Source: Thioalkalivibrio sp. ALJ3 (lineage in GTDB: Bacteria > Pseudomonadota > Gammaproteobacteria > Ectothiorhodospirales > Ectothiorhodospiraceae). From it: 64,000 nucleotides of DNA. The position numbers were made by a program, and so were the translations under genes. The notes below the pieces were generated by a model that did not search any database, had not been told where the DNA came from, and saw only the letters and a program-made list of their open reading frames with translations. Location of the stretch: assembly GCF_000377205.1 (NCBI RefSeq), contig NZ_KB897907.1, positions 248,001 through 312,000 on the forward strand, in the 5' to 3' direction. Numbering within the stretch: position 1 is the first letter of the stretch; each line of letters opens with the position of its first letter. Positions 24,449 to 34,338 of this stretch are shown here, piece by piece.

Positions 24449-24688
24449 ATGGAAGCCAATCAAGTGGCCGAGCTCATTCGTGCCGGCCTGCCGGAGGCCG
24501 AAAAGGTCGAGGTCACCGGGGGCGAGGGCAAGTTCGAGGCCCTGGTCGTCAGCCCGCAATTCGCCGGAATGAACAAGGTCAAGAAGCACCAAACCGTCTA
24601 CGCCACGGTGCGTGACCAGATCGACTCCGGCGAGGTCCACGCACTGTCCATCCGCGCCCTGACGCCGGAAGAAGCCGCAGGCGCCTGA
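24449..24688 (+). CDS. ibaG: BolA/IbaG-family protein
   Basis: 79 residues with the BolA fold: VEVTGGEGKFEALVVSPQF, the conserved MNKVKKHQTVYATV helix and the C-terminal VHALSIRALTPEE. The short N-terminus and the KKHQTVY segment resemble IbaG (YrbA) more than BolA; these proteins form [2Fe-2S] complexes with monothiol glutaredoxins. It is not next to murA, its usual neighbour, but is first in a plus-strand run with two unknown genes and two HDOD proteins. Start: the ATG at 24449. Confidence 0.85.
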   Translation: MEANQVAELIRAGLPEAEKVEVTGGEGKFEALVVSPQFAGMNKVKKHQTVYATVRDQIDSGEVHALSIRALTPEEAAGA

Positions 24689-24701
24689 GCACCGCGCCGG
24701 G

Positions 24702-25106
24702 ATGCTCTCGCCCAAGGGCCGCGAGGAGATCGAGCGCCTGCTGGAGGGCGGCCTGGTTCACGACTGGGGCGAGGCCGAGACGACGCTGCGCAATGTCACG
24801 CGCATGCTGTTGACCACGCGCCCGGACCTGCTCCGTCTGTACTTCAGCCCCGAGGCGTGGGAACAGATTACTGCCTGGCCGCAGAAAAAGGCCGCCAACG
24901 CGATCATCGCCGCATTGCGTACCGGCGTGGTCGACGCCCTCGGGCGGCCGGCCATCGCCAACCGCGAACAGGCCCGTTTCTACTTGCTCTGCTTTCAGGA
25001 CGACCTCGCCGAACGGGTGGACGCCTGGTGCCGCGAGCACCCTGAGGAATGTCCGCGTCGCAGCCGCGCACGAACCCAAACCCTCCCTGGCGACTCCGAG
25101 CCATGA
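24702..25106 (+). CDS. Uncharacterised 134-residue protein
   Basis: Starts 13 nt after ibaG, and its TGA overlaps the next gene's ATG (ATGA), so it is a genuine coupled gene. Sequence is largely helical and charged, with WGEAETTLRNVTRMLL and a DLLRLYFSPEAWEQITAWPQ-type central stretch, no signal peptide, no membrane segment and a Cys/Arg/Pro-rich tail (CREHPEECPRRSRARTQ). I do not recognise a family. Confidence 0.65.
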   Translation: MLSPKGREEIERLLEGGLVHDWGEAETTLRNVTRMLLTTRPDLLRLYFSPEAWEQITAWPQKKAANAIIAALRTGVVDALGRPAIANREQARFYLLCFQDDLAERVDAWCREHPEECPRRSRARTQTLPGDSEP

Positions 25107-25687
25107 CCCCCGATGTTCTCGAATGCGGTCAGCCCGCGATTGAAGGACCGCTGCGCCAGCTGCTAGGACGCTACGGGCTGAAACTGGTCATGCACCCGCC
25201 GGGCGCGGCGCTGCCCGGAACCTGGTGGGGCGAACCCGAGGCGGGGATCATCGGGCATACCGTACATGTCCGCCCCGACACACCGCTGCACTCGGCGCTG
25301 CACGAAGCCAGCCACCTGATCTGTATGGAACCGCAGCGCCGCGCGACACTGCATACCAATGCCGGGGGCGACGACCTGGAGGAGTGCGGGGTTTGCTACC
25401 TGCAGATTCTGCTGGCCGATGCCCTGCCCGGAGTGGGTCGCGAACGCCTGATGCGGGACATGGACGCCTGGGGCTACAGCTTCCGTCTGGGTTCGACCGC
25501 GCGCTGGTTTGACGAGGACGCCGACGATGCACGGGTCTTCCTCCGCTCCGAGGGGCTGATCGACTCGCGCGAGCGGCTTTCATTCGCCTGTCGCGGGGCC
25601 CTCGAGACTGCGCGGGATGCTACACTGAGATCCACGTCACAAGACGCGACTCCCCCGGAAAACGCCAGCCAGGATCCAATGCGGTGA
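25103..25687 (+). CDS. Unrecognised protein with an HExxH-type motif
   Basis: From the coupled ATG at 25103 (MTPDVLECG, 194 residues) the protein has HEASH at residues 67-71, preceded by HTVHVRPDTPLHSAL, and a downstream Glu in DDLEECGVCYLQILL. HExxH plus a distal Glu is the zinc-binding layout of gluzincin-type metallopeptidases, but the rest matches no family I recognise and no signal peptide is present, so it would act in the cytoplasm. A C-terminal 20-residue tail is polar and disordered-looking. It overlaps the neighbours on both sides by 4 nt or lies just before the next gene. Confidence 0.7.
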   Translation: MTPDVLECGQPAIEGPLRQLLGRYGLKLVMHPPGAALPGTWWGEPEAGIIGHTVHVRPDTPLHSALHEASHLICMEPQRRATLHTNAGGDDLEECGVCYLQILLADALPGVGRERLMRDMDAWGYSFRLGSTARWFDEDADDARVFLRSEGLIDSRERLSFACRGALETARDATLRSTSQDATPPENASQDPMR

Positions 25688-25755
25688 TTGCGCTGCCGGG
25701 CACAGCGCGCCGGGCAATCACGAACCCACTGGCCACCCTCCCGGGCTGGGGATCA

Positions 25756-26994
25756 ATGGAAACACAGGCAACGGAACCGCTCATGGACACGACGACCATC
25801 GACAGTCTGCTCCAGGAAATGGATCTCACCGCGCACCTGTCGGAGTCCGCCCGCGCAGAACTCGCCCAGGCATGCGCCAGCCCGGAGCTGCCCGCCGGTA
25901 AGCGACTGCGTCCACAGGACGTTGCCGACCGGCACCTGTTCCTGCTGAGCGGCCAGCTGGTACGTGTCAGCGGCGGTACGCCATCCCGCATTACCGTTGG
26001 CGATGGCAACGGCGAGCCACCACTGCAGATGTTCGACGGTGGGGCCGGCCAGCAGGACTTCATCATTACCGAGAAGCCCTGCCGCATGCTGGAGGTACCC
26101 ACTGCGGCGCTGGAGCAGGCCCACAGTGCTTCGCTGGTGATGCACGACACCGAGTTGGACGACACGGAAGGCGCCTTTTTTGGCGAGTTGTACGACCTGA
26201 TTACCAGCAATCGTCTGGAGCTGCCGACCATGCCCGAGGTCGCTCTGCGCATCCAGGAACTGACCCGAGATCCGGATGCGGACATCGACAAGCTGACCGA
26301 TGTCATCCAGCGCGACGGGACCATCGCGGGTGCCCTGTTGCATGCCACGAACAGTCCGCTGTTCCGCGGGTCCCAGCAGATCCAGTCGGTACGCGACGCG
26401 GTCACTCGCCTGGGCTTTCGCAACACCCGCATGCTGGCGATGAACATGGCCATGCGACAAGCCTTCAAGGCACGTCACGCCGCCACACGCAATGCCATGG
26501 AGGCAGTCTGGCAACACGGGGTATTGCAGTCGGCCTATGCCTACCTTGTGGCCGACTCCCTGAAGCTGCTGGACCGAGAACGAGCGCTGCTCGCCGGCCT
26601 GGTCGCCGGCATCGGGGCCGTCCCGATCATCCAGTTCATCGAGGTACGCGAAGACCACCCGGATCCCGAGCGCATCGCTCGCCTGGTTCGCCGCCTGCGC
26701 AACCTCGCCGGGGTCCTGGTCATCAACTACTGGGACCTGGGCGGAGACCTGGTCAACGTCGCCGAACACAGTAGCGACTGGGGCTACCGACCCGCGGAGC
26801 CCGACTACGCCAGTATCGCGCTGGTCGCCCAGTACGCTGCCTTGCAGGCGGAGGGCGAGGAACTGCCGCCACCGTCCGAGGTCAAGGCTTTCGAACTCCT
26901 GGGCATCGATGCCCCCGCCCCCAGGGAACCGATTGCGTTCCTGGAGGCCCGCTCCGAGGATCTAGCGGAGTTGCAGAAACTGTTCGATATGTGA
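25756..26994 (+). CDS. HDOD-domain signalling protein with cyclic-nucleotide-binding-like N-terminus (first of a tandem pair)
   Basis: The N-terminal 130 residues resemble a cNMP-binding beta-barrel (PAGKRLRPQDVADRHLFLLSGQLVRVSGG). The middle is an HDOD domain, opening with LYDLITSNRLELPTMPEVAL and continuing DADIDKLTDVIQRDG and LLHATNSPLFRG. HDOD domains are HD-related but lack the metal-binding HD pair and act in signalling. The start at 25756 (METQATEP) follows GGGGATCA; a GTG at 25684 that overlaps the previous stop is an alternative. Downstream, after 13 nt, is a paralogue with the same layout. Confidence 0.85.
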   Translation: METQATEPLMDTTTIDSLLQEMDLTAHLSESARAELAQACASPELPAGKRLRPQDVADRHLFLLSGQLVRVSGGTPSRITVGDGNGEPPLQMFDGGAGQQDFIITEKPCRMLEVPTAALEQAHSASLVMHDTELDDTEGAFFGELYDLITSNRLELPTMPEVALRIQELTRDPDADIDKLTDVIQRDGTIAGALLHATNSPLFRGSQQIQSVRDAVTRLGFRNTRMLAMNMAMRQAFKARHAATRNAMEAVWQHGVLQSAYAYLVADSLKLLDRERALLAGLVAGIGAVPIIQFIEVREDHPDPERIARLVRRLRNLAGVLVINYWDLGGDLVNVAEHSSDWGYRPAEPDYASIALVAQYAALQAEGEELPPPSEVKAFELLGIDAPAPREPIAFLEARSEDLAELQKLFDM

Positions 26995-27007
26995 GGCTGA
27001 AGCGCCG

Positions 27008-28207
27008 GTGCTCGAGGAACGTCTTCCACAACTGGTCCCGTTTACCGATCTCGGAGAACGGGCGCGCCAGAAGCTCCTGCAGCACGCGAGCACCCTGGAT
27101 ATCACGCCCGGTCTCAAGCTGCATGCACGCGACGAACGGCGCTACCTGATCTTTCTTCTCGAAGGCCGGCTCATCCTGTCCGACGACGGCCACACGGTAA
27201 TGCTCAAGAGCGGCAGTCCGGAATCCCTGCACCCGGTATTCGATGAGCGCGACTATCACAGCCATGCCATCGTAGCGAGCCGCGGCCGCATCGCGCTGTT
27301 CGACCGCAAGGTCTACGAGAATTTGATCGACGGGGCGCACGAAGGGGTCGAGGTAAGCGAGATCGAACTCTCCGACCTCGAGGGCGAATTGTTCACCAGC
27401 ATCTACACCCACGCGTTCTCCGGCGAACTGGAACTGCCCCAACTGCCCGAGGTCGCGCTGCACCTGCAAGCGGCGCTGAAGGACCCGGACGTCGACATCG
27501 AGCGAGTCACCCGGATCATCGAAGAAGACCCCAGCGTCGCCGCGCGCCTGCTGTCGGTGGCCAACAGTCCGGCGATGGGGAGCCAGCGCGAGGTCTCGCG
27601 ACTGGGGGATGCCGTTTCCCGCCTTGGCCTGGAACGTACACGACAACTGGTGATGGCCCTGGCCGCACACCAGGTGTTCATTCACCACGACAGTCCCTAC
27701 CACCGGTTGCTGGAACGCCTGTGGCGCCGTTCGGCCCGTATCGCGGCCATCAGCTGTGTACTGGCCGACCAGAGCGAGGCCGTGGATCCGCAGAAGGCCC
27801 TGCTGGCAGGCCTGCTCCATCGGGTCGGCGCTTTGCCCATCATCGGTGAAGTCGCCCGCAACCACCCCGATCGCAGTGCCGAAGACATCGAACGCATCCT
27901 CTACCGTCTGGAAGGCCTGATCGGCGAACTGGTTGCTCAACAGTGGGGCCTGGCTTCCGATATCATGGAAGTTATTCGCGATTCCGGTGGCCCGGAAACC
28001 GCTACGGCAGCACCCCTGACCGACATCGTGCGCATCGCACGCAGCGCCTGCACGCGCGATGGCGATAACGCCCTTGCGGACCGGACGCCACTGGCCGAGT
28101 TGAACGCCGTGCCACGATTCGGCTTCGTACTCGACGACAACGGGCAGTTACCTGCAATCGACACGGCCCGCCGCGAGATTGACGCGCTGATCCGCGAAGT
28201 CGCCTGA
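27008..28207 (+). CDS. HDOD-domain signalling protein with cyclic-nucleotide-binding-like N-terminus (second of the pair)
   Basis: 399 residues from a GTG start (GTGCTCGAGGAACG). N-terminal barrel ([22 protein letters not shown]), then an HDOD domain opening [20 protein letters not shown] with VANSPAMGS and [18 protein letters not shown]. The HDOD segments of the two neighbours align closely, so they are duplicated paralogues that have drifted. Both keep the ELP-(x2)-PEVAL opening. Neither has a visible output domain such as GGDEF. Confidence 0.85.
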
Positions 28208-28272: not shown

Positions 28273-29229
28273 ATGACCACTCGAACCCGACCCCAACCTG
28301 GCGAAAAGCAACGCGCCGCCGACAAGGTCGCGCGCATCCCGGTCAAGATCAGCCCGACCGAGCGCCCACAGCGCAAGCCGAAGTGGATCCGCGCCCAGAG
28401 CCAGGCGCGGCCCGAGGTGCAGCGCATCAAGCGCATCCTGCGCGAGCAGAAGCTGCACACCGTCTGCGAAGAGGCGAGCTGCCCGAACCTCGGCGAATGT
28501 TTCGCCCATGGCACCGCCACCTTCATGATCATGGGCGACATCTGCACCCGCCGCTGCCCGTTCTGCGACGTCGCCCACGGCCGCCCCGAGGCCCTCGACC
28601 CGGACGAGCCTCGCCACCTGGCGAAGACCATCCAGGCGCTGGGCCTGAAGTATGTGGTCATCACCTCCGTGGACCGCGACGACCTGCGTGACGGTGGTGC
28701 CGGCCACTTCGTGGAGTGCATCCGCGAGGTCCGCACGCTGAATCCGAACACGAAGATCGAGATCCTGGTACCCGACTTCCGCGGCCGCATGGACCGCGCG
28801 TTGGAGATCATGCACCAGGCCCCGCCAGACGTCTTCAATCACAACCTCGAGACGATCCCGCGGCTTTACCGCGAGGCGCGCCCCGGTGCCGATTATCAGT
28901 GGTCGCTGGAGCTGCTGAAGCGCTTCCGCGAACAGCACCCGGGGGTGCCGACCAAGTCCGGTTTGATGCTCGGTTTGGGCGAGACCCGTGAGGAACTGCT
29001 GGAGGTCCTGGCAGACCTGCGCGAACACGGCTGCGACATGCTGACCCTGGGCCAGTACCTGCAGCCCTCGCGTCATCACCTGCCGGTCACGCGCTTCCTG
29101 ACACCCGAGGAGTTCGACGAGCTCGGCGAGGCCGCGCGCGAAATGGGCTTCAAGCAGGTGGCCAGCGGGCCTATGGTGCGCTCCTCCTACCACGCCGACC
29201 TCCAGGCACAGGGACTCGAAACCGCCTGA
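28273..29229 (+). CDS. lipA: Lipoyl synthase
   Basis: A radical-SAM enzyme that inserts two sulfurs into octanoyl-lysine to make lipoate. The N-terminal auxiliary-cluster motif is [12 protein letters not shown] and the radical-SAM motif CTRRCPFC; the C-terminal RSSYHAD serine ligand is present. 318 residues (E. coli 321). It sits 65 nt after the HDOD pair, with an AGGGAAG Shine-Dalgarno. Its usual partner lipB lies 0.9 kb away on the opposite strand, beyond a repeat island. Confidence 0.97.
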
Positions 29230-29804: not shown

Positions 29805-30124
29805 CACCGGCGGTTTTGACCTACCCTCCCGATATGAGCCCCTTGTGGAGGGCGTGACAGGCCGGACGATTCAAAATAGACACGGGGCGCTGACTGTCTG
29901 AGCGAAGCGAGTTTCAGCGCCGCCGGCCTGGCGCGTCCGGAGCAAGGTCCCCGGGCGAATCCCGGGCGTGTTTCTTGGTTCCTTCTTTGCACGAGCAAAG
30001 AAGCCCGTTTTTGATTAACAACTGGCGAGGCGCGCTGGCGAGACAGCGCAGGCAGGCGGCAGGCCGAAGCCAACGTAAACTCCAGATGTTGAACCAGGCC
30101 CAGCCTCAGGGTACGGGGCAATGA
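29805..30124 (-). repeat. Repeat B, inverted copy of repeat A, overlapping the lipB 3' end
   Basis: Reverse-complement partner of repeat A, with the same block order. Contains a 9-bp hairpin CTTCTTTGC/GCAAAGAAG with a 4-nt loop (29982-30003) at the position of the A hairpin, with a different but still complementary sequence. The block CCCTGAGGCTGG supplies the TGA stop of lipB. Confidence 0.75.
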
Positions 30125-30819
30125 CCCAGCGCCAGCACCCGGACGAGCTCGGGCGGCAAAGACGGTTCATGCCGGATGCTCGCGGCATCGGCGGGAAACA
30201 GCTGTTCGGCGAGATGGGCGAGCAGCTGCTCGCGGACGCGGGTGGCGTCCAGCGGGCCGAGCAGATGCTGCATGGAGGTCGCGGCGAGACCAGGATAGCC
30301 ACAGGGGTTCATGCGCTGAAACGGCGCCAGATTCGGGGCGATGTTCAGCGCCAGCCCATGGATGCTGCGTCCTTGCCGGATGCGCAGGCCCAGCGCCGCA
30401 ATCTTGGCACCGTCGACATACACCCCCGGCGCCTTCTCCCGGCGCTGCGCGTGGATGCCCCATTGCGCGAGCGTATCGATCAGCGCCTGCTCCAGCACCT
30501 CGACCAGGCGCCGGACCCCAACCCCCAGCCGCGGCAGGTCCACCAGCGTGTAGACGACCAGTTGCCCGGGGCCATGCCAGGTCACCTGCCCCCCGCGATC
30601 GATCGCCACCACCGGCGTCGCGCCGGGGTCCAGCAGATGCTCGGGGCGGCCATTACGGCCCTGGGTAAAAACGGGGGGGTGTTCGACGCACCAGAACTCG
30701 TCCGGACGGGTCGCATCGCGCTCCCGGGCCTGGAGCTGCATCGCCTGCCAGACGGGTACATAGGGCTGCACACCCAGCAGACGGACCACGGGCCCGCCGG
30801 GAACGAGCGGGCCGTTCAC
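30106..30819 (-). CDS. lipB: Octanoyltransferase LipB
   Basis: Transfers octanoate from ACP to lipoyl-domain lysines, before LipA. Conserved [34 protein letters not shown] (catalytic Lys) and [11 protein letters not shown], with the catalytic Cys in MNPCGY. 237 residues. The last five codons and the stop lie inside repeat B, so the C-terminus appears to have been set by that element. The start overlaps the stop of the DUF493 gene by 4 nt. Confidence 0.95.
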
Positions 30820-31085
30820 AGGATCATGCGGACCCGGTCACAACGCCCCAGGGCCCGATAAAGGTCATCGAGCTGAGCCTGGCTGGTCGCGGTGAACGTG
30901 ATGGTGATGCCGAGGAAGCGCCCGCCACTGGAGGCGCGTTGCTGGATCACGGCATCGTCGGGGTCCGGCACATGCTCGGCCACGCAGGCCTCCACGGCCT
31001 CCAGGAGTTCCGGGTGGGAGTCCCCCATCACCTTGATCGGAAAGCGGCAGGGGAACTCGATCAGGCTTTCGCGCTTGTCCGTCAT
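30816..31085 (-). CDS. ybeD: YbeD/DUF493-family protein
   Basis: 89 residues with the family's opening [20 protein letters not shown] and a ferredoxin-like fold pattern ([21 protein letters not shown]). Its role is poorly defined; it sits before lipB in many gammaproteobacteria. The start at 31085 is chosen because it forms an ATGA overlap with the dat stop. Confidence 0.88.
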
Positions 31086-31966
31086 GCACACCCCTTGACC
31101 GCCGCTCGGGACTGCCTTGCCGTGGCCTTCTCCTGCTGGTAGGCAGCATGAACCGACTTCCAGGCCGGTCCGGGTGTCCCGAGTCCCACCGGCTGGCCAT
31201 CAAGGCGGCAGACAGGCAGGACCTCCTTTGTGGAACTGGTCAGCCAGATCTCGTCGGCGGCGCGCAACTCGGATTCGGACAGGGCCCGCTCCATGACCTG
31301 AAGGCCGCACTGGGCGGCAAGACGCAGGACCAGGGCCCTTGTCACACCCGGCAACAGCGATGGCGCCAGCGGCGGTGTCACCAGCGTGCCGTCGACCAGC
31401 GCGAACACATTGCTGGCCGCACCCTCGGTCACCTGCCCGTCGTGCAGCAGAATGGCCTCGACCGCATCCTGGTCACGCGCATCCTGGCGCGCAAGCACAT
31501 TCGCCAGGAGCGTCGTGGCCTTGATGTCACAACGGGCCCAGCGCGTGTCGGATCCCGTTACCACCGCAACCCCGGACTGGCGGATCGTGTCCGGCAGTGG
31601 CGCGATCGGGTTCGCCATGGCAAAAACCGTTGGCGCCCCGCTGGCAGGAAAGGCATGGTCACGCGGGGCAACGCCCCGCGTGACTTGCAGATACAGGCCG
31701 AGATCGGCGGCCTCGTCACCCTCGTTGCGCCGGACGAGCTCCTCCAGCATGGCCCGCCACTGGTCGAGCGACAGCGGCGTCTCAAGACGAATGGCGTCCA
31801 GCGAACGCTGCAACCGTTGCAGGTGTTCCCTCAACAGAAACAGCTGCCCGCCGTAGCTGGGGATCACCTCGTAGACCGAGTCCCCGAACAGAAACCCGCG
31901 ATCCAGCGGCGAGATGCGCACGGATTCAAGCGGTATGAACTCGCCATTGAAATACGCAATGCCCAC
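31082..31966 (-). CDS. dat: D-alanine/D-amino-acid transaminase (fold-type IV PLP enzyme)
   Basis: 294 residues. Fold-IV aminotransferase start MGIAYFNGEFIPLESVRISPLDRGFLFGDSVYE; PLP Lys in RCDIKATTLLANVLARQ; TEGAASNVFAL phosphate-binding loop and LPGVTRALVLRLA. Compared with branched-chain transaminase it is short and lacks that family's N-terminal extension; D-amino-acid transaminase (making D-Glu/D-Ala for peptidoglycan) fits its position just after a D,D-carboxypeptidase. 4-amino-4-deoxychorismate lyase is the other close family. Confidence 0.82.
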   Translation of the reverse strand: MGIAYFNGEFIPLESVRISPLDRGFLFGDSVYEVIPSYGGQLFLLREHLQRLQRSLDAIRLETPLSLDQWRAMLEELVRRNEGDEAADLGLYLQVTRGVAPRDHAFPASGAPTVFAMANPIAPLPDTIRQSGVAVVTGSDTRWARCDIKATTLLANVLARQDARDQDAVEAILLHDGQVTEGAASNVFALVDGTLVTPPLAPSLLPGVTRALVLRLAAQCGLQVMERALSESELRAADEIWLTSSTKEVLPVCRLDGQPVGLGTPGPAWKSVHAAYQQEKATARQSRAAVKGCA

Positions 31967-31978
31967 ACTCGCCCCGGC

Positions 31979-33226
31979 TCAGAACGGCCAGACCGAGCGC
32001 AGCGACAGGGCAGCACCGTCCCACAGGCGACGCACCAGGCCGCCCTCCTCGACCTCTTCAAGGGCAACCACGGGCTGTTGCCCGATCAACTCGCCATTCA
32101 GACGGGCATGCACCTCGCCCACTGCGGCCCCTGCGGCCAGCGGCGCTTCCAGCGGCTGATTCAGTTCCATCGTGGCCTCGAGGCCGTCACCACGACCCGG
32201 CGGCACGATCACCCAGAAGTCCTCGGCGACCCCGACGGAAACCTCGCTATTCGTACCGCGATAGACGCGCGGGCTGCCCAGCTGCGTACCCGCCTCGAAC
32301 AAGCGCTGCGGCTCGGTAAAGCGCATGCCCCAGTTGACCAGGGCCTGCGACTCGTTGGCCCGACGAGTACCGCCCTCCTGGTGATTGGAGGCCTCGATGC
32401 CCAGCACCACGGCAACCAGGCGGCGATCGTTGCGCTTCGCCGACGAAACCAGATTGTAGCCAGCCGCGGAGGTCCAGCCTGTCTTCAGGCCATCGAACCC
32501 GGCATCGCGCCACAGCAGCATGTTGCGATTGCTCTGCGAGATGTCGTTGTATTCGAACGAGCGCTCGCTGTAGTAGCCATAAAGGTCAGGGAAATCGCGA
32601 ATCAATGCCCGCGCCAGCAGCGCCATGTCCTGCGCGGAGGTGGACTGCTCCTCGTCGGACGGCAAGCCGTGCGAGTTGGTGAAATACGAGTTCATCATCC
32701 CGAGTTCACGCGCCTGGCTGTTCATCATGTCAACGAACGCGCCCTCGGAACCCGCCACGGCCTCGGCCAGCGCGGTGGAGGCGTCATTCCCGGACTGAAT
32801 AATCATCCCGCGCAGCAGGTCCTCGACCTCCACCTCGTCGCCAACCTCGATGAACATGCGCGATGCGCCCCGCATACCCGTGCGCCAGGCCCGCTCGCTG
32901 ATGGTGACCGTGTCCTCCAGTCCCAAACGCCCGTCACGGATCTCGCCAAACACGACATAGGCCGTCATCAGCTTGGTCAGGCTGGCGGGCTCGCGGTCCA
33001 CATCCGGCTCGCGCGAGGCCAGCAGCAGACCGGAGTCGAAATCCATCAGCGCATAGCTTTTCGCCGTCACGTCAGAGGGCGGGCTCGGGACCCCGCTCGG
33101 CATGCCCCCGCCACTCCCGGGTACCGGCAGTGGTTCGTCCGCAATCACCGGCATTGCGGCAACACACGCAGCCAGGGACAGAGTCATCAGGACGCGGCGG
33201 GCAAACGTATGGAGAGGGGCGGTCAT
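31979..33226 (-). CDS. dacC: D-alanyl-D-alanine carboxypeptidase (PBP5/6 type)
   Basis: A periplasmic penicillin-binding protein trimming pentapeptides. Signal peptide RRVLMTLSLAACVAAMPVIA with cleavage near IADE; active-site SLTK in EPASLTKLMTAYVV, SGN in IIQSGNDAST and KTG in GLKTGWTSAAG. The C-terminal beta-rich domain and an amphipathic end (LRSVWPF) fit membrane anchoring. 415 residues; the start at 33226 has an AGGAGG 12 nt upstream. PBP5 (dacA) and PBP6 (dacC) cannot be separated by reading. Confidence 0.92.
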   Translation of the reverse strand: MTAPLHTFARRVLMTLSLAACVAAMPVIADEPLPVPGSGGGMPSGVPSPPSDVTAKSYALMDFDSGLLLASREPDVDREPASLTKLMTAYVVFGEIRDGRLGLEDTVTISERAWRTGMRGASRMFIEVGDEVEVEDLLRGMIIQSGNDASTALAEAVAGSEGAFVDMMNSQARELGMMNSYFTNSHGLPSDEEQSTSAQDMALLARALIRDFPDLYGYYSERSFEYNDISQSNRNMLLWRDAGFDGLKTGWTSAAGYNLVSSAKRNDRRLVAVVLGIEASNHQEGGTRRANESQALVNWGMRFTEPQRLFEAGTQLGSPRVYRGTNSEVSVGVAEDFWVIVPPGRGDGLEATMELNQPLEAPLAAGAAVGEVHARLNGELIGQQPVVALEEVEEGGLVRRLWDGAALSLRSVWPF

Positions 33227-33333
33227 GGTATTTAGAGGCCTCCTGTAGAGATGGCTAACGATAGCAGACCGAACCCGCGCAGATGAACGCACACAGGCCG
33301 GTCGGCATGAACAAAAGACAAGGAACCGCGGAG

Positions 33334-34338
33334 TCAGTCGTCGACGATGCGATAGTCGACATGGGCGGCCTCCTGCAGGCGCTCGGTTGCCTCCTGCAAC
33401 TCGACCTCTTCCAGCGGACCGATACGCACCCGGTGCAGATCCGCCTGCGCGTCGCGTTCCAGCGTGGAAATCTCGACCGACTCGAACCCCAGGGCCTGCA
33501 GATCCCGCTGAATCTCCTCCGCCGTTCGGCGCTCGGAAAATGCCCCGACCTGTACCCAACGGCCGTTGCTCGCGGGCACCTCCGAGGCATTCGACTCGGT
33601 GGCGGTCGGGGCGTCATCAGACGATGCCGGGGTTGAGCTTGTGTTGACACCCTCGCCAGCATCGGCCAGCTCGATGGGTTCCGGCGCTGGCGAGCGCGGC
33701 TCGGCCACACGAGGAGGGTCCACGTCATCCGGTCCCACTGCACGGATCCGCACCGGCGCCACACCGGCATCGGTCATGTCCAGCCGATGGGCGGCCGCAT
33801 AGGAGAGGTCGATAATGCGGTCGTCCACGAAGGGCCCGCGATCATTAACCCGCACAATCACGCGGCGGTCATTCTCCAGGTTCACGACCTCGACATAGGT
33901 GGGCAGCGGCAGCGTCTTGTGGGCCGCCGTCATCGCGTACATGTCGTAGGGTTCGCCACTGGATGTGCGCCGGCCGTGGAATTTGGTCCCGTACCAGGAG
34001 GCCAGTCCCTCTTCCTCGAACCCGGTGCTGGTACGCAGGGTGCGGTAGCGCTTCCCGAACACTTCGTATTCGGCCGGATTCCCGTAGCGACTCGGAGGCT
34101 CGTCCTTCGGCACGGCATCGGGAATCAGCGCCAGATCCTGCGGGATGTCATCCGGATCCGGATAGGCGTCAAACGCCGCATCGCCCAGCGGGCGGTCCGG
34201 ATCGGCCTTGCGATCGGGGGCGGACGAACAACCCGCCAGCATCAGCGCGCACGACACCGCCAGCGCGGCGGCCGCCGCGCCAAGCCGGCAGCGGTTACTC
34301 GGCAAAGGCCTCGGCCAGCTGGTGGACAGCCATCGCAT
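33334..34338 (-). CDS. rlpA: Septal-ring lipoprotein RlpA (lytic transglycosylase)
   Basis: Signal peptide with lipobox LAGC (Cys about residue 37). A double-psi beta-barrel domain follows: GLASWYGTKFHGRRTSSGEPYDMYAMTAAHKTLP split by the conserved Asp region VRVNDRGPFVDDRIIDLSY. A linker rich in Pro, Glu and Ala leads to a C-terminal SPOR domain that binds denuded glycan strands. 334 residues. The start lies 44 nt inside mltB; no later in-frame start keeps the signal peptide. Confidence 0.93.
   Translation of the reverse strand: MRWLSTSWPRPLPSNRCRLGAAAAALAVSCALMLAGCSSAPDRKADPDRPLGDAAFDAYPDPDDIPQDLALIPDAVPKDEPPSRYGNPAEYEVFGKRYRTLRTSTGFEEEGLASWYGTKFHGRRTSSGEPYDMYAMTAAHKTLPLPTYVEVVNLENDRRVIVRVNDRGPFVDDRIIDLSYAAAHRLDMTDAGVAPVRIRAVGPDDVDPPRVAEPRSPAPEPIELADAGEGVNTSSTPASSDDAPTATESNASEVPASNGRWVQVGAFSERRTAEEIQRDLQALGFESVEISTLERDAQADLHRVRIGPLEEVELQEATERLQEAAHVDYRIVDD

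Follow-up and report, generated by a model that had tools for sequence, protein, structure and literature searches.

The stretch of DNA analysed here (the window, 64,000 nucleotides, G000:C3:248001-312000 of the 2.63 Mb genome of Thioalkalivibrio sp. ALJ3) carries a plus-strand run of five genes, namely ibaG, a gene for a 134-residue protein (U134), a gene for a protein with an HExxH motif (here HEASH) and two HDOD genes, and a check of the reading frames found all five open reading frames as described in the original prediction, a note made from the sequence alone. The HExxH protein is the subject of this account. Its family appears to be known to no family database, and a role in the modification of EF-P is proposed for it here from sequence comparisons; the protein is probably an enzyme, so far unrecognised, for the last step of this modification, because its gene sits behind the EF-P lysylation genes in several other lineages. 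The features of the locus are as follows.

24449..24688, plus strand: ibaG (BolA, PF01722, E 1.2e-15).
24702..25106, plus strand: U134, a 134-residue protein without Pfam or NCBIfam match above cut-off.
25103..25687, plus strand: the HExxH (HEASH) protein of 194 residues, a predicted EF-P hydroxylase-like enzyme.
25289..25315, plus strand: codons of H63, H67 (25301-25303), E68 (25304-25306) and H71 (25313-25315), on the predicted metal-binding helix.
25337..25342, plus strand: R79-R80 of the HExxH protein, at +12/+13 from the first histidine of the motif, like R71-R72 of E. coli EpmC.
25379..25384, plus strand: E93-E94 of the HExxH protein, E94 being the predicted third metal ligand and counterpart of EpmC Glu98.
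25684..26994, plus strand: HDOD1, a cyclic-nucleotide-binding-like barrel plus an HDOD domain (PF08668, E 1.5e-34), the start being perhaps the ATG at 25783.
27008..28207, plus strand: HDOD2, with the same predicted architecture (PF08668, E 3.8e-40).
28273..29229, plus strand: lipA, which lies directly 3' of the HExxH gene in the loci of the genus that are without U134 and the HDOD genes.

A single transcript for the five-gene run, as had been proposed from the tight spacing of the genes, is plausible. The 4-nucleotide ATGA overlap between U134 and the HExxH gene and the 13-nucleotide gaps are both correct, whereas the second 4-nucleotide overlap, between the HExxH gene and HDOD1, depends on a GTG start of HDOD1 at 25684. 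Both this start and the overlap are doubtful because the distant HDOD1 orthologues (L073-L076, L078-L082) align from residue 34, which is the ATG at 25783, so that the sequence allows a possible gap of 95 nucleotides instead; in close relatives the alignment begins at residue 1 (L072) or 13 (L077). The HExxH protein would be 18 residues longer if it began at another ATG, at 25049; the family alignment starts near 25103.

At E 1e-3 the sequence of the HExxH protein matched nothing in Pfam, NCBIfam, PHROG or the PDB, and no match above the Pfam cut-off was obtained with 23 members of its family (best E 0.016). The family is present in 39 of the 58 genomes searched (own genome included) and in nine of 26 genera, with full-length matches that are, own genome apart, 50 to 84% identical to the window protein. 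At least 582 stretches encode it in contigs from one genome per species; the best 80 of these come mostly from gammaproteobacterial or unplaced proteobacterial bins, an impression rather than a tally, and also include one Burkholderiales, one Acidithiobacillales and one Acidobacteria bin. A profile search found the family in 71 of 274 genomes of an evenly drawn class sample, the class being, to judge by record titles, the Gammaproteobacteria; a phylum sample has it in 10 of 299 genomes, two of them outside the class. One out-of-class gene (L307) lies at the extreme end of a 4.6 kb contig (G518:C228:1-4631), where a binning error is possible. A phage or plasmid origin was considered and rejected: no relatives on viral contigs were found (two pattern matches, neither confirmed), there was no plasmid match, and no PHROG was obtained for the protein at E 1. 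PADLOC likewise returned no match for U134, the HExxH protein, HDOD1 or HDOD2 at E 0.1.

The original prediction pointed to the HEASH histidines and glutamate together with a distal glutamate, and loss of the His and Glu in orthologues was one of two outcomes that would have spoken against it; H67, E68, H71 and E94 are kept in all 166 aligned sequences of the family, and the combination is beyond chance. H63 is found in 163 of the 166 (glutamine in the other three), E93 in 165 (isoleucine in one), R79 in 161 and R80 in 165. The alignment is what remained of 192 loci once duplicates and fragments no longer than 110 residues had been removed. Eighty of the loci were found by pattern (HS.LHE or DMD.WGY), whereas those of the class genomes besides the window's own, 70 in number and 71 with it, came from the profile search; motif conservation in the 80 is partly due to selection, because the search patterns themselves held HS.LHE or DMD.WGY. 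The invariant blocks are EAG, TPxHS and DMDxWGY. In the AlphaFold2 model, which is a confident one (predicted local distance difference score, pLDDT, 90.9; predicted template modelling score, pTM, 0.83), helix 62-74 carries the HExxH motif and helix 91-105 has Glu93/94 at its beginning. All 166 sequences have the HExxH plus downstream glutamate that marks gluzincin-type proteins, and, at the sequence level, H67, H71 and E94 also match the 2-His-1-carboxylate residues of EpmC (His59, His63, Glu98).

The repeated genomic partner of the gene is not the HDOD pair but efp-epmA. The order efp > epmA > HExxH, all on the same strand, was found in 13 of the 71 class genomes, from seven families (f52, f57, f61, f94, f145, f155 and f157; genomes G228, G092, G192, G302, G180, G292, G300, G190, G087, G225, G129, G249 and G096), with 12-57 nucleotides between the epmA and HExxH alignments. 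The same order occurs in two Granulosicoccaceae contigs, L136 and L154 (24 and 102 nucleotides). Neighbours in the class genomes were identified within the fetched stretch by tblastn searches, with query proteins from E. coli and the window and a floor of 45 bits, a procedure that misses diverged neighbours.

With an EpmA-grade threshold of E below about 1e-84, near the curated cut-off (220 genomes versus 219 by the tool's own cut-off, G096 being borderline), a match was found in 67 of the 71 genomes with the HExxH family, compared with 153 of the 203 without it (Fisher P 2.4e-4). Of the four exceptions, G193 and G303 carry next to efp a divergent epmA that stays below cut-off, which brings the genomes with an EpmA-like gene to 69 of the 71; for the other two, completeness is 62% and 81%. 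Searches of 23 chosen genomes with the family recovered EF-P in 21, and in all 21 the main copy reads VKPGKGQAF (Pro32, Lys34). The Thioalkalivibrio genome itself encodes EpmA (E 1e-101), EpmB (E 7.9e-137) and an EF-P with Lys34, and has no EpmC (PF04315) match. EpmC and the HExxH family were never found together: over cut-off, EpmC is present in 16 and the HExxH family in 71 of the 274 class genomes, both in none, and the corresponding figures for the phylum sample are 36, 10 and none of 299. Within the 220 EpmA genomes an overlap of 4.6 would be expected (P 0.0035, a value that ignores kinship). Apparent co-occurrences in G074 and G048 were rejected, the PF04315 matches being below cut-off and on contigs other than that of the HExxH gene; the one in G074 (L174) we take to be ArdC-like. 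Taken together, the genomic link of the family to the EpmA/EF-P Lys34 pathway is well supported.

A weak link to EpmC (YfcM; PF04315; PDB 4PDN, 3WTR) is suggested by profile comparison. A profile built from the window and 61 of the 79 other pattern-found loci (L130 failed the motif filter; effective number of sequences, Neff, 2.5) was compared by hhalign with a 15-row alignment of E. coli EpmC (from NC_000913) and 14 relatives, giving a score of 42.4, a probability of 84.9 and an E of 6.4e-6 (single comparison) over 32 columns. The alignment pairs the SALHExxH segment and the arginine pair at +12/+13 of both families. When columns were permuted with HExxH kept, none of 200 controls on the EpmC side and none of 200 on the HExxH family side reached 42.4 (means 22.5 and 18.8), and control profiles of YbeY (12 sequences) and of another HExxH family (two sequences) scored 14.1 and 17.5. 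The HExxH protein and EpmC are both small proteins with an SA[LI]HExxH helix and a third-ligand glutamate on the next helix, and both coexist with EpmA and a Lys34-type EF-P. YfcM has been described in PMC4231759 as holding its metal by His59, His63 and Glu98 in a YbeY-like fold and as carrying out Fe-dependent hydroxylation.

With a probability of roughly two in three, we read the mainly gammaproteobacterial HExxH family as a second EF-P hydroxylase of the Fe(II) type that replaces EpmC. Once EpmA has put (beta-)lysine on Lys34 of EF-P, the HExxH protein would bind this modified form and, through Fe(II) in a 2-His-1-carboxylate site of His67, His71 and Glu94, would hydroxylate the (beta-)lysyl-lysine, the job of E. 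coli EpmC, in EpmA lineages that are without EpmC. In the lineage of the window, the gene for this putative hydroxylase stands between ibaG and lipA, with the U134/HDOD cassette around it. For the HExxH protein we infer the substrate and the benefit, and, by analogy with EpmC, the metal, the reaction and the order of the steps.

Several observations weigh against the hydroxylase reading. Neither efp nor epmA was seen beside the HExxH gene in 58 of the 71 class genomes, the window included, within the stretch read, which reaches the contig end in some. The operon label requires four changes on the HExxH protein tree and may have had one origin; this tree left out four rows, three with His63 replaced by Gln and missed by the motif filter (L282, L286, L251) and one fragment (L295). 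G518 carries the HExxH gene, on its short contig end, and is without EpmA at 96% completeness. The Lys34 loop is unspecific, VKPGKGQAF being found also in G033 (L297), which is without the family. Both EpmC and the HExxH family are lacking in 118 of the 190 genomes with EpmA and EpmB (the EpmB threshold used gives 197 genomes, and the tool's cut-off 189), and the non-overlap of EpmC and the HExxH family may partly reflect clade structure. As for the relationship to EpmC itself, the best permuted controls (40.1 and 42.2) fall little short of the real score, a pairwise BLASTP of the HExxH protein with EpmC gave only E 0.10, and neither the window protein nor the 23 family members matched PF04315. 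The EpmC loop between the metal helices, in which GYWY is invariant and PDGR nearly so among the 15 EpmC rows, is absent as GYWY..DGR from the alignments of the HExxH family, which has Gln in 159 and Glu in two of 166 sequences at the spacing of Asp105. The protein is not filed as EpmC because it has neither a PF04315 match nor this loop, and it differs also in its own blocks EAG, TPxHS and DMDxWGY and in its place in an efp-epmA operon in some lineages. Foldseek with the HExxH model against the PDB and viral models found nothing at E 1e-3; in the structural second look with VIA-align, gluzincins tie with or exceed YfcM (BepA at Z 5.7), all under Z 6.

The structural comparison also bears on a possible delysylase, a gluzincin-type metallopeptidase that would, for example, hydrolyse the Lys34-lysine isopeptide bond and so edit or reverse the action of EpmA. 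The same genomic tie to efp-epmA would be expected, the HExxH plus distal glutamate would fit, and most of the solved folds listed are zinc peptidases, BepA, minigluzincins and IrrE among them. YfcM stands fourth and sixth among the gluzincins with Z 4.9 and 4.7, middling values by the tool's own note, the better match (3wtr) covering 106 of 141 residues at a root-mean-square deviation of 4.1. The modelled fold thus weakly resembles both EpmC and gluzincin peptidases, and it was not used to choose between hydroxylase and peptidase because the two are listed together. The minigluzincin and IrrE-type domains (abylysin, jannalysin, IrrE) share the HExxH...E order and reach Z 4.0-4.9; they show no sequence match, and the context of the HExxH gene is, unlike theirs, EF-P modification in the operon lineages. 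A delysylase predicts neither the EpmC non-overlap nor the profile link to EpmC, we know of no delysylase activity on EF-P, and this reading is unlikely.

Gene neighbourhoods outside the operon lineages raise another possibility, that the protein is some other translation or RNA enzyme, such as a YbeY-like nuclease, and that its linkage to epmA is old and without shared function, like that of the convergent psd gene, which 10 of the 13 operon genomes have within 2.5 kb on the opposite strand. The HExxH gene lies 3' of leuS-lptE in L246 (G202), as judged with E. coli queries, and in L152 and L155, where cysS, holA and nadD are nearby, and in some lineages it stands beside apparent rsmA and pgl genes (these latter contexts were read by eye); a single origin of the operon would also suit this explanation. 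YbeY (UPF0054) carries two histidines of its metal site on the same kind of helix, according to PMC4231759. It has, however, a three-His motif as opposed to HExxH..E, and in L152 and L155 ybeY is a gene of its own within the run that holds the HExxH gene; homology of the HExxH protein with YbeY was rejected on the profile score of only 14.1. The same-strand spacing of 12-57 nucleotides in seven families and the EpmA-like gene in 69 of 71 genomes also speak against an unrelated translation or RNA function, which we regard as improbable. The full run in L152, L155 and L246 is ybeY-ybeX-lnt-leuS-lptE followed by the HExxH gene. In the window, positions 30106-33559 hold lipB, ybeD-like, aminotransferase-like and dacA-like genes in an order that is kept in several relatives and recalls the lipA-dacA-leuS-lptE region of E. 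coli.

The original prediction had a metallopeptidase-like protein work with the paired HDOD proteins and U134 in a small signalling module that senses nucleotides, and its reading of the HDOD pair holds in part. HDOD1 and HDOD2 reach 119.7 and 137.9 bits against a PF08668 cut-off of 22.9 and are 33% identical to each other over 317 columns. Their N-terminal profile matches a tandem-domain cGMP kinase at E 1.3e-8 summed over four domains, the best single domain reaching only 0.51, and Foldseek matches cyclic nucleotide monophosphate (cNMP) binding domains to the HDOD N-terminus at E of about 2e-4 to 9e-4, with a beta-barrel in the model; the barrel is, by these models, cyclic-nucleotide-binding-like. 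The usual phosphate-binding cassette of cyclic-nucleotide domains contains a Gly-Glu and an Arg. These residues are absent from the conserved columns of the HDOD barrel and from the stretch aligned with the kinase, and nucleotide sensing is doubtful for that reason. HDOD1 and HDOD2 are plain members of the HDOD family with such a barrel, and no new kind of HDOD protein is claimed. Beyond this pair, another HDOD match (51.5 bits) lies just past the window end at G000:C3:312219-312563, and HDOD matches in the genome number nine altogether.

Conservation of the neighbourhood, which had been expected of a module, is found only locally. A scattering of the genes among relatives, the second outcome that the original prediction named as speaking against it, is borne out for the module. 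The 30 close loci of the window's family (own included) comprise 15 with ibaG-U134-HExxH-HDOD, two of a sister genus that carry U134 and HDOD, and 13 with ibaG-HExxH and without U134, where lipA is directly next in 11 and the contig ends in two; in those 11 the HDOD genes are absent too, because lipA follows the HExxH gene directly. U134 and HDOD, being together in 17 of 17 loci and U134 missing from the other 13, therefore come and go together, and U134 is 78-97% identical within the genus. ibaG is the upstream neighbour in all loci of the genus that were read, including those without U134 and HDOD; the U134 and HDOD genes beside the HExxH gene are local additions. Among 163 loci read, a same-strand HDOD neighbour outside the window's family occurs only in L087, L245 (G162) and L261 (G297, with U134), and L130 has one on the opposite strand. 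The signalling module, although contiguous in the window, echoed by those three same-strand loci and fitted with a cNMP-like barrel, is highly improbable, as the genes do not form a unit, U134 and HDOD being absent beside the HExxH gene in most relatives (67 of the 70 class genomes other than the window's show no HDOD match near it within the stretch read), and as the nucleotide cassette residues are not kept. A generic HExxH protease tied to HDOD signalling was dropped on the same neighbourhood evidence.

The preferred hydroxylase reading leaves room for further EF-P chemistry in some operon lineages. Six genomes with the operon give no match at E 1e-3 to the lysine aminomutase EpmB (TIGR03821), namely G129 (locus L284), G192 (L269), G225 (L286), G249 (L290), G292 (L291) and G302 (L273); they are six of the 16 EpmA-bearing genomes without any EpmB match. 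For comparison, yjeA without yjeK is given for only two organisms in an earlier survey of 725 genomes (PMC2821294), and because of this difference an alternative EF-P decoration may exist. It is a tentative and rather doubtful idea that EpmA in these lineages adds alpha-lysine or another compound, which the HExxH enzyme would mature into a decoration not yet described.

EF-P modification helps bacteria past polyproline stalls. The benefit of the hydroxylation step is itself in question, because the introduction of PMC6544042 calls E. coli EF-P hydroxylation negligible for function; the same source counts 358 EpmA and 143 EpmC proteins among 1137 EF-P genomes. Among the papers listed in literature searches whose coverage excludes preprints and most subscription journals, none describes a second family of EF-P hydroxylases. 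Many EpmA-bearing genomes are without a known hydroxylase, and the HExxH family, if the proposal is true, would fill part of this gap; it would then be a second way of building a non-haem iron hydroxylase of the EpmC kind, in a family that the databases have left an orphan.

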